64,000 nucleotides of DNA from Fodinibius salsisoli. Its GTDB lineage: Bacteria > Bacteroidota > Rhodothermia > Balneolales > Balneolaceae. Positions 42,721 to 64,000 of this stretch are shown in pieces (positions within the stretch are counted from its first letter, which is position 1; every line of letters begins with the position of its first letter). Under the pieces are notes generated by a model. It was given only the letters and a program-made list of their open reading frames with translations. It was not told where the DNA came from and made no database searches. The translations under genes were made by a program, and so were the position numbers. The stretch is from positions 186,001-250,000 of the forward strand of contig NZ_JAGGJA010000002.1 in the NCBI RefSeq assembly GCF_026229185.1, in the 5' to 3' direction.

Positions 42721-43506
42721 ATGAAATATCCTAAACGCTCACTATTAACCTTACTGCTGTTTCTTGGAATTACTGCTTTTGCCTTTGGCCAAAACCTTCC
42801 CTCCCAGCCAACGGGTCATGTCAATGATTTCGCCAACATGCTTAACAGCAGTGAGCAGCAGCAGCTTGAGACCAAGCTTCGCAATTACCGGGATACCACA
42901 ACCACCGTTATTGCAGTAGCAACGCTCAAGAGTCTAAACGGTATTTCGATTGAGGAAACGGCGACCACCCTCTTTAACGAATGGAATTTATGGGAAGGCG
43001 ATAAAGATAATGGGGTACTGATTCTTATTGCTCAACAGGAACGAAAAATGCGGATTGAAGTTGGGTATGGGCTTGAGGGGGCCATCCCTGACGTGATGGC
43101 CGGCCGTATTATCCGCGAGATTCTTTCTCCCAGCTTCAAACAAAGTGCGTATTACTCAGGACTTGATCGGGCTACTTCTGCTCTTATACAACTTGCCAGC
43201 GGCGAATATACCGGGCAACTGGCCAAAGAAAACTCCTCTACCCTGGATGGAGATACGATTTCATTTATCATCAACCTGCTTTTTATCATTTTCGTGATCT
43301 ACTTCTCCTCGCGTCGTAAAGGCGGTAAAGGAGGTGGCAAGGGAGGCAAACGCCGCACCCTGGGGCCCGGTGGATTTATCTTTCTCGGAGGCGGTGGTTT
43401 TGGTTCCGGCGGCGGATTTGGAGGGGGCTCCGGCGGCGGATTCGGCGGCTTCAGCGGAGGCGGTGGATTTGGCTCCGGTGGCGGTGGTGCCAGCGGAGGC
43501 TGGTGA
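42721..43506 (+). CDS. TPM domain membrane protein with Gly-rich tail (YgcG-like)
   Basis: A 261-aa protein: signal peptide (ending AFGQ), periplasmic TPM domain (NDFANMLNSSEQQQLE through the conserved RKMRIEVGYGLEGAIPD), a transmembrane helix (TISFIINLLFIIFVIYF) and a very Gly/Ser-rich tail from about residue 200 that ends GASGGW. This is the YgcG/BatZ-like arrangement that usually goes with LemA. It is the last gene of the operon, followed by an 18-bp inverted repeat. Confidence 0.88.
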   Translation: MKYPKRSLLTLLLFLGITAFAFGQNLPSQPTGHVNDFANMLNSSEQQQLETKLRNYRDTTTTVIAVATLKSLNGISIEETATTLFNEWNLWEGDKDNGVLILIAQQERKMRIEVGYGLEGAIPDVMAGRIIREILSPSFKQSAYYSGLDRATSALIQLASGEYTGQLAKENSSTLDGDTISFIINLLFIIFVIYFSSRRKGGKGGGKGGKRRTLGPGGFIFLGGGGFGSGGGFGGGSGGGFGGFSGGGGFGSGGGGASGGW

Positions 43507-51680: not shown

Positions 51681-52724
51681 CTATTTGCTATCCGAAAAGG
51701 TAATCTCACGACCTTCCCTCTCGTATTTCATATCCAGCGATAATGCAATTACTGTTAATACTTCTGCTAATGGTTCATCTTCAAAGGAAGCTGACAACCG
51801 CCGGCTGGCCAACCCAGTATCCGCTATGGTAATATTAATGTTGTACCAACGCTCTAACCGGGTAACTACATCTTTTAACGGCCGATCATTGAACATCAAA
51901 ACTTTATCTTTCCATGCAATCAGTTCTCTTATACTCCCTTCTCCTCTTTCAATGATATTTCCCGAAGGATGGTAGGTTACCCATTGGTTTTTTGTTAGGA
52001 AAACAGGTTCATACTTACCATCATCATTTTCTTCTACCTTTTCTTTACTTACTGCCACTTTTCCCTCAGCAACGGCTACCTGTACTTTTTCACCAGATTT
52101 ATAAGCATTGATATTAAATGAGGTGCCCAAAACTTTTGTTACGGTATTCCCCGCGTGTACGATAAATGGGCGAGAAGTATCTCTGACAACCGAAAAGAAA
52201 GCCTCTCCCTCGAGATATATTTCGCGCTTATTGCGACTAAATTTTGAAGGATAACGCAAAGAACTTCCGGCATTTAAGTATATCACTGAACCGTCACCAA
52301 ACCGGAAAGTCGCTTTTTGTCCAGCCGATAATGTTCGTTCTTTATACGTTAGGGAGGTATTTTCCTCAAGGGGAGTTTGCATATAATAAAATCCTACTCC
52401 CCCGGCGGTAAGAATAAGCAAAATGATGGCTGCTACCCTCAACCAACTATTGGTTTTAATACCTTGAGCAGGTCGAATGTCCTTTCTCCCTGTAGCACCT
52501 TCTTGCTTATCTGGCTTAATGTTACTGAAGAGCTGTTTTTTTATCTCTTCAGTATCGGCATAGGATTGCTTCTTTTCGTGACGGATATCTTTTGCTATCC
52601 TTTCCAATAAAGAAACATTCTCGGGATCTTGATCAAGCCAATTCTCGATCGCCTGCACTTCATTGGGTGTGCAAAGACCTAATAGATAATTAACTAAAAG
52701 TTGTCGGTTTGGCAGATCTTGCAT
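51681..52724 (-). CDS. FecR family anti-sigma factor
   Basis: A 347-aa inner-membrane protein. A cytoplasmic N-terminal domain (1-90) holds the sigma factor; a single membrane helix follows (about 96-116, LRVAAIILLILTAGGVGFYY); the periplasmic FecR domain (GSVIYLNAGSSLRYP, GEAFFSV, VLGTSFNI) comes next; the C-terminal DUF4974 (FNDRPLKDVVTRLERWYN, SFEDEPLAEVL) should meet the STN domain of SusC2. It is encoded between the sigma factor and susC2, the standard order. Confidence 0.93.
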   Translation of the reverse strand: MQDLPNRQLLVNYLLGLCTPNEVQAIENWLDQDPENVSLLERIAKDIRHEKKQSYADTEEIKKQLFSNIKPDKQEGATGRKDIRPAQGIKTNSWLRVAAIILLILTAGGVGFYYMQTPLEENTSLTYKERTLSAGQKATFRFGDGSVIYLNAGSSLRYPSKFSRNKREIYLEGEAFFSVVRDTSRPFIVHAGNTVTKVLGTSFNINAYKSGEKVQVAVAEGKVAVSKEKVEENDDGKYEPVFLTKNQWVTYHPSGNIIERGEGSIRELIAWKDKVLMFNDRPLKDVVTRLERWYNINITIADTGLASRRLSASFEDEPLAEVLTVIALSLDMKYEREGREITFSDSK

Positions 52725-52991
52725 ATGAGTCTTTTGCTAAAATTCACTTATATAATCCTATTAAAACCCTAACCCCTGAGGTGAAAAATATTTTAATTAT
52801 TGCCCCTACATCCTGATAAAGGCGTTTATGAAATAATTTAGAAATTGATCTCCACATTCCGTGCATATCAGTGCGTGGGTAAAAAATCAGGACGGAGAAA
52901 TCAGTATTTATTTACTTTAGTAGGCGGGACTTTTGAAACTGTAGTAAACGAGTGGGTTATAAATAGATGGCGCCTGATGTAGACAAGACTA

Positions 52992-53516
52992 TTAGTTGTT
53001 TTGGGAGAATTCTCTGAGCTCTTGTCTCAAAATTTGCAAGGCTTTACTGATGTGCGTTTCTACCGTCTTGATGGAAATGTCCATTACTTCTGCAATTTCA
53101 GAATAGGTCAGCCCTTCTTCCCTACTTAACAGGTAGGCCTTCCGGGCACGCAGCGATATTTTAGAATGTGCAACCCGATAAGCCTCCTGAATATCAATCG
53201 GATTAACTACAGGTTCATCCTGAGACTGCTTTTCAGTAAGTTTCTCAAGGTTCTCTTCTAACCAATTGTCGTAATTATTCTCTTTTTTCAATCTTTTTAA
53301 CGCATGATTCCGGGCTGTCTTAAGCAAGTAACTTTTAAATGAAGGATGGTCAAAATTAATAGAATCTCTTTTCTGCCACATCTTAAGAAATACATCCTGC
53401 GCCCAATCTTGAACAAGTGCTTGATTAGATGTATAGGTGTACAAAAAAGACACCACGTCATTAATATACTGATCAAATAATTCTTCAAACTGTTTTCTTC
53501 CCAACATCTGTTTCAA
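52992..53516 (-). CDS. ECF RNA polymerase sigma factor (FecI-like)
   Basis: A 174-aa sigma-70 family protein with only regions 2 and 4. Region 2: LFDQYINDVVSFLYTYTSN to WAQDVFLKMWQKR. Region 4: YLLSREEGLTYSEIAEVMDIS with the helix-turn-helix KTVETHISKALQILR. It should direct transcription of its own operon when released by FecR. The 267 bases between it and fecR are unusually long and probably contain the sigma-dependent promoter for fecR-susC2. A candidate vegetative promoter lies 59 bases upstream. Confidence 0.93.
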   Translation of the reverse strand: MKQMLGRKQFEELFDQYINDVVSFLYTYTSNQALVQDWAQDVFLKMWQKRDSINFDHPSFKSYLLKTARNHALKRLKKENNYDNWLEENLEKLTEKQSQDEPVVNPIDIQEAYRVAHSKISLRARKAYLLSREEGLTYSEIAEVMDISIKTVETHISKALQILRQELREFSQNN

Positions 53517-62261: not shown

Positions 62262-62301
62262 GTATGCCCCCTTAAATTTATTTATATAGATTTGATACCC
62301 A

Positions 62302-62333
62302 TTTTAAGACCTTTATCTTATTTTGTCTTAAAA
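62302..62333 (-). promoter_or_regulatory. Perfect inverted repeat in the susC3 leader
   Basis: TTTTAAGAC (62302-62310), a 14-base spacer and GTCTTAAAA (62325-62333), about 41-72 bases before the susC3 start. Likely a leader hairpin or operator; there is no T-run on the minus strand. Confidence 0.45.
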
Positions 62334-62420
62334 CCGATATATCCCTGAGGTAATTCTTCAAGGTTTATCTTTAAATAAATTTATAGGAGAGATAGTCAGC
62401 GTTAAATCAAATTAAGATGA

Positions 62421-62460
62421 GAAGGGTAATAGTGTGACGAGAAGAGAAATAGTGTGATAA
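62421..62460 (-). promoter_or_regulatory. Tandem 20-bp direct repeat, candidate LytTR operator
   Basis: Two adjacent 20-base units (62421-62440 and 62441-62460) agree at 16 of 20 positions and share the exact core AATAGTGTGA (62428-62437 and 62448-62457; TCACACTATT on the minus strand). The 20-base period puts both cores on the same DNA face. LytTR regulators typically bind direct repeats about two turns apart. On the minus strand a possible TTTGATT...TATAAA promoter follows about 17 bases downstream. Confidence 0.5.
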
Positions 62461-62490
62461 ATCTACACGACCCAAACAAACCTTATTCCT

Positions 62491-63260: not shown

Positions 63261-64000
63261 TTATTTCTCATTTTTTTTGAACGGAAATTCGATATACACT
63301 TTTAAGCCTCCGAGTGGGGAGTCCATGAGCTCGAACGTTGAATTGTGATACAGTTGGTTTAATCGCTGTTTAATATTTTCAAGCCCGATACCATCGACGT
63401 TAACTGAATTTTCCAACCCCGGACCATCGTCTTCAACAGCTATACTCAGCAATCCATTCTGTTTTTGGGCTGAAATCCGAATCTTCCCCGGCTGCATCTT
63501 ATGAGATATACCGTGTTTTACGGCATTTTCAACTAATGGTTGCAGTAAGAAACTGGGCACCAATCCATGGAGCGTATCCTCATCAATTTCCTTTTCTATA
63601 TGTAAACGATCGCTGAACCGGGTTTTCTCAATCTCAAGATAAGTGCCGGTAAATTCAAGTTCGTCCACCAGCGGTACCTGCTGATCATCTACTCGGTTAA
63701 TTGAGGTTCTTAAAAAACGTTTGAGTAATTTCAGTACCCTTCTGGCTTTAGTTGGTGCTTCATAAATTAGCGAATTGATACTATGAAGTGTATTAAATAA
63801 GAAATGAGGATGTAGCTGGACCTTTAGAATGTGCAGGCGTATGGAGGCAAGTTCTGCCTCCAAATGGGCATTCCTGAGCTGCCGTTCTCTATAGCGCTCA
63901 TAATATCTCCTGGAATAGTAGGCTCCAATAATTAACCAATATCCAAAAGGATCTACCATGCCTAGCCAGTTCATAATCACCGGCACAGATTCCATGAAAC
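63261..64000 (-). CDS. LytS/YehU-type sensor histidine kinase (5' end beyond window)
   Basis: At least 246 codons, open to the right edge; ATG 63995 is only the first Met seen, and the usual N-terminal membrane helices are probably outside. The phospho-accepting His is in QLHPHFLFNTLHSI (the second His), preceded by a coiled-coil linker. The ATP-binding lobe has LLQPLVENAVKHGI (N box) and VEDDGPGL, GIGLENIKQRL (G boxes). It is the partner of the LytTR regulator and the first visible gene of the kinase-regulator-susC-susD block. Confidence 0.9.
   Translation of the reverse strand, partial: FMESVPVIMNWLGMVDPFGYWLIIGAYYSRRYYERYRERQLRNAHLEAELASIRLHILKVQLHPHFLFNTLHSINSLIYEAPTKARRVLKLLKRFLRTSINRVDDQQVPLVDELEFTGTYLEIEKTRFSDRLHIEKEIDEDTLHGLVPSFLLQPLVENAVKHGISHKMQPGKIRISAQKQNGLLSIAVEDDGPGLENSVNVDGIGLENIKQRLNQLYHNSTFELMDSPLGGLKVYIEFPFKKNEK

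Follow-up and report, generated by a model that had tools for sequence, protein, structure and literature searches.

A tandem repeat between a LytTR regulator gene and susCD in Fodinibius salsisoli as the putative operator of a LytS/LytTR system with a degenerate second kinase

SusCD operons are usually discussed together with ECF/FecR, SusR-like or hybrid two-component control. In the window considered here, i.e., the whole stretch of 64,000 nucleotides of Fodinibius salsisoli DNA that was analysed, susCD lies downstream of a LytTR response regulator gene and a short tandem repeat occupies the intergenic region, which raises the question of whether the repeat is the site through which the regulator acts on the importer. 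The comparison of related genomes makes it highly probable that the repeat is the operator of the adjoining regulator, which would control susCD, likely by activation; on the best reading, further putative sites often precede the regulatory operon itself. Such an operator is of an ordinary kind, and the less expected part is the module of kinase, pseudokinase and LytTR regulator beside SusCD. Hybrid two-component and ECF sigma/FecR systems likewise place a dedicated regulator beside susCD, but here a separate kinase and a LytTR regulator are found in place of the fused hybrid or the sigma/anti-sigma pair; the ECF/FecR pair present in the window (51681-53516) is a separate locus.

On the contig, read 5' to 3' on the minus strand, the order is HK2 (375 aa), HK1, LytTR, intergenic region, SusC and SusD (Table 1). 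The sequence-only reading had described the LytTR gene, a LytS-type kinase at the edge, SusC and SusD, and this layout stands, all genes being on the minus strand; the window edge falls within HK1, and HK2 was therefore outside its view. The second, degenerate kinase is thus an addition to that reading, as is the motif found upstream of the regulatory genes in several related operons. The receiver of the regulator is intact (LFLDIQMP and DYLMKPF), and HK1 carries PF06580 (81.6 bits) and PF02518 (HATPase, 34.1 bits), several hydrophobic segments, the PHFLFN His and the N box. The kinase domains of HK1, the receiver and LytTR domains of the regulator and the paired putative target repeats identify a LytS/LytTR two-component system, and the SusC/RagA transporter with its SusD lipoprotein identifies a SusCD importer. 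The genome holds three LytTR domains only; a second LytTR protein, whose N-terminal region is unrecognised by Pfam, is encoded about 6 kb away (L044:11654-12490). A PUL-type reading was rejected, since the next genes past the kinases code for a methyltransferase and a PNPOx-like protein and not for glycoside hydrolases.

Table 1. Position, strand and supporting evidence of the features at the locus.
Feature	Coordinates	Strand	Basis
SusD-like lipoprotein, 491 aa	57622..59097	-	PF12771, 242.2 bits
SusC/RagA TonB-dependent transporter, 1046 aa	59121..62261	-	TIGR04056, 614.7 bits
Possible susC promoter, TTTAAC (62406-62401) N15 TATAAAT (62385-62379)	62379..62406	-	Alignment with G035, G038 and G040
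Possible degenerate half-site 3, CTCATCTTAA, 20 bp further, in phase	62412..62421	-	Sequence reading and orthologous intergenic alignment
Putative LytTR half-site 2, CTCGTCACAC, 20 bp from half-site 1	62432..62441	-	Same basis as half-site 1
Putative LytTR half-site 1 (distal), TTTATCACAC	62452..62461	-	Repeat analysis, pair tests and genome searches
LytTR response regulator, 252 aa	62491-63249	-	Receiver PF00072, 86 bits; LytTR PF04397, 97.3 bits
HK1, active-type LytS-family histidine kinase, 366 aa	63261..64000, runs past the window end	-	Domain search and motifs

The repeat consists of two adjoining 20-nt units (62416-62435 and 62436-62455), near-identical on the coding (minus) strand (TTTATCACACTATTTCTCTT CTCGTCACACTATTACCCTT), with 17 of 20 positions shared (85%) and a spacing of exactly 20. 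When the 229-bp LytTR-susC intergenic region was shuffled 20,000 times with its dinucleotides preserved, 5 shuffles produced such a tandem, and the two adjoining units with a shared core that had been noticed by eye are thus borne out. Read on the minus strand, the repeat has the form TTTATCACAC-N10-CTCGTCACAC (62461-62432), and the full array is TTTATCACAC TATTTCTCTT CTCGTCACAC TATTACCCTT CTCATCTTAA; its degenerate third unit keeps the 20-bp phase, so that the array slightly overruns positions 62421-62460, where the repeat had been placed, at both ends. In the whole 64-kb window, one other tandem with 18-24-nt spacing reaches 17/20 (43401-43450, 24-nt spacing, TCCGGCGGCGGATT), which is probably a Gly-rich coding stretch. 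A repetitive or mobile element was considered and rejected: a search of 128 genomes from the order found the exact tandem once, and in the rest of the own genome single units are matched at the level of the controls. LytTR binding sites generally comprise two 9-11-nt repeats with an 11-13-nt spacer (PMC4847170). With half-sites of about 9-10 nt and a start-to-start distance of 20-21 bp, the array falls at the short end of this range, in agreement with the earlier statement that LytTR proteins bind paired direct repeats about two turns apart.

Matches to the regulator at E<=1e-45 were found in 16 of the 128 genomes of the order. The order HK2-HK1-LytTR followed by SusC is seen in G035, G038, G040 and G065; in G072 LytTR is followed by a SusC start and has no adjoining kinase, G105 has kinase-LytTR-SusC, and G034, G039, G107 and G004 have the kinase pair and LytTR with no SusC directly downstream. 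A half-site, GTCACATT, is common to the aligned LytTR-to-SusC intergenic regions, 23-132 bp past the LytTR stop codon. Its summed distance over five such regions from five genera is 2, against 10.9 +/- 1.3 in shuffles (0/2000 as low), whereas upstream of five SusC orthologues (58-66% identical) without a LytTR neighbour the summed distance is 9, reached in 408/2000 shuffles, i.e., background. Moreover, when six bases of the proximal copy were compared at 36 offsets with the window excluded, offsets 41 and 20 gave the greatest self-similarity. The motif goes with the regulator and not with the SusC type: G038 and G040 keep it despite a very different SusC (218-234 bits vs 1465 in G035), and G039 keeps it without any SusC. 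Because the relatives keep the motif with the regulator and are without it where the importer lacks the regulator, the repeat is very probably the docking site of the regulator.

The pairing of half-sites was assessed with the consensus TTCRTCACAY at a spacing of 20 or 21 bp in 18 LytTR-linked regions, either LytTR-to-susC intergenic or upstream of kinase genes. Pairs were significant at p<=0.05 in 13 of the 18 and at p<=0.005 in nine, figures to be read with the fact that the consensus derives partly from regions later tested, so that G105 and the whole-genome searches offer the fairest check. In G105, which belongs to another family and was unused for the consensus, the pair has a p of 0.004. 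Of 64 other promoter regions at these loci that served as controls, one reached p<=0.05 and none p<=0.005, and 0/5 of the SusC orthologues without LytTR had a significant pair. The signal is uneven among the relatives: the pair is not significant in G029, where LytTR adjoins SusC (p 0.495), nor in G040 (p 0.30), where a single half-site is significant. A whole-genome search covering 11 genomes (about 41 Mb) gave four matches with no more than one mismatch, every one of them at the LytTR locus of G065; when up to two mismatches were allowed there were 13 matches, of which 8, including the repeat of the window, fall at LytTR loci. These results make it very improbable that the repeat reflects chance or a decaying simple tandem duplication without function; a recent 20-bp duplication could produce the 17/20 identity, but the orthologues share half-site and spacing though their full 20-bp units are dissimilar, and the control regions are at background.

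A large regulon was considered and rejected, as most matches with three mismatches look like coding sequence and in many genomes they are about as frequent as matches to the reversed control pattern; further targets are not claimed. A LytTR motif at the level of the phylum was also rejected, being not significant over 99 and 111 regions from more distant LytTR loci, and the claim is confined to the order. Similar-looking GTCCC/GCCAC pairs were noticed by eye at the wider LytTR loci.

Several genomes also have TTCRTCACAY pairs ahead of the kinase genes. In G065 the array in this position is TTCGTCACAC-N10-TTCATCACAC-N11-TTCGTCACTT; in the closest relative of the regulator (G034, 63% identical), which has no SusC neighbour, the pair upstream of the kinases is weak (p 0.035), as is that of the own kinase operon (p 0.068). 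Such matches, together with the occurrence of the module without an adjoining SusC in G039 and G034, would be expected if the repeat served another purpose, the regulatory operon being the sole true target or the ligand being another DNA-binding protein, and LytTR did not control susCD. This explanation is improbable, because the site lies between LytTR and SusC in the window and in G035, G038, G065, G072 and G105, and SusC orthologues without the regulator are also without the site. The same distribution supports the proposal, already made from the window, of a SusCD importer under LytS/LytTR control, with the motif beside orthologous LytTR genes and absent at LytTR-less SusC orthologues; conservation in orthologous loci, named in the sequence-only reading as a check, was found for both the half-site and its 20-21 bp pairing. 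Two minor observations concern the same upstream regions: in G004 (L046:12451-12582) half-site arrays occur on both strands, one facing a divergent ankyrin-like gene, and in G065 (L116:3698-3862) a small open frame with a lipobox-like LSCG lies just upstream of the kinase genes and could encode a small lipoprotein.

A promoter had also been proposed downstream of the repeat. The TTTAAC-N15-TATAAAT element is plausible in this role and its counterpart in the intergenic alignment of G035, G038 and G040 is TTTAAC/TTTAAG-N16-TAATAT, but it was not picked up by a sigma-70 consensus scan. In these three orthologues the proximal half-site stops about 5 nt short of the -35-like element and leaves the -10 free. 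The good pair of the window is separated from the putative -35 by about 25 bp, 20 bp more than in the orthologues, unless the degenerate third copy, which occupies the proximal slot, is the one used; a shift phased by two helical turns would fit a helical-face constraint, although this is a single case. The position of the sites bears on the sign of control. Occupancy of the operator might repress susC or block read-through from the regulator gene, given that LytTR and susC flank the array on one strand and that sequence alone does not fix the sign; this is unlikely, as the placing in the orthologues, clear of the -10, resembles that of LytTR activator sites (PMC6193735). In the 5' leader of susC, a strong hairpin is seen at 62295-62340 (z -3.4 in the window), with hairpins also in G040 (z -4.3) and G065 (z -2.8) and weak ones in G035 and G038, the sequences differing in each.

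For activation by the LytTR regulator, the following mechanism can be proposed. The inner-membrane LytS-type kinase and its degenerate partner would phosphorylate the regulator in response to a signal that is probably nutrient-related; two regulator molecules would then occupy the pair of TTCRTCACAY half-sites, on one face of the DNA and two helical turns apart, and from this position upstream of the susC promoter would most likely activate the transcription of susCD. Autoregulation is suggested as well, since several relatives also carry the motif ahead of the regulatory operon. A LytTR-controlled SusCD with a defined and conserved putative operator provides a promoter that can be tested at once and a motif with which to look for further cases.

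The degenerate partner, HK2, is encoded just beyond position 64000 (L044:7366-8493, on the same contig), and a domain search returns PF06580 alone (44 bits). Its phospho-accepting His and ATP-binding (N/G) motifs are lost, as expected of a histidine pseudokinase. The condition is general: in 12/12 kinase-pair/LytTR operons examined, nine in the order and three of other families (L182, L183 and L195), one kinase of the pair is without the PHFLFN His and the N-box Asn and the other keeps both, PHFLFN being replaced in the degenerate kinases by PDFLL, PEIIY, PYLMI, PQFLF and others. The relatives of HK2 within the order are 18-44% identical to it, and conservation over so wide a divergence argues that HK2 is kept for a function and is not decaying. 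The degenerate gene comes first in the nine operons of the order. In the other three it comes second, their LytTR proteins group in a supported clade of their own, and a large secreted protein with a pectinesterase domain is encoded downstream; that gene order is reversed in these other families, beside pectinesterase genes, suggests that the pairing arose more than once. There is about an even chance that the locus encodes a three-component system of LytS, pseudo-LytS and LytTR, in which the dead kinase is a dedicated partner, as heterodimer co-sensor or activity switch, and the output is the SusCD importer. No paper on LytS-family pseudokinases or on LytTR control of SusC was found in a literature search that misses most subscription papers. 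DivL of Caulobacter and a ChrS variant of Corynebacterium are reported to resemble kinases and to retain a role in signalling although they lack normal catalysis (PMC4211667, PMC9491836); they belong to other kinase families, whereas the PF06580 pseudokinase shares an operon with an active-type paralogue and LytTR. A conserved pseudokinase beside an active-type kinase is a natural case for how dead kinases tune two-component signalling.

Among the known systems, BtsS/BtsR and YpdA/YpdB of Escherichia coli are alike in having a LytS-type kinase, a receiver-LytTR regulator, direct repeats about two turns apart and a transporter as target (PMC5552118, PMC4847170). They differ in that the target here is a SusCD pair and a second, degenerate kinase is encoded; furthermore, the YpdB half-site (GGCATTTCAT) is different from TTCRTCACAY, and the regulator of the window scores 178.8 bits on the BtsR model NF008677, below the cut-off of 246, and so is not a BtsR equivalog. 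In the LRS HdrRM and BrsRM of Streptococcus mutans, LytTR direct repeats likewise precede the -35 element by a few bp, and there they mediate autoregulation (PMC6193735). In LRS, however, the partner of the LytTR protein is a membrane inhibitor protein and not a kinase (PMC6193735), while the locus described here is a full two-component system; with its receiver domain and adjoining kinase, the regulator falls outside the LRS. Congeneric species carry short open frames, about 120 aa long, that match the LytTR domain and lie beside SusCD genes (L051:9390-9773, L053:9292-9648 and L055:9155-9520).
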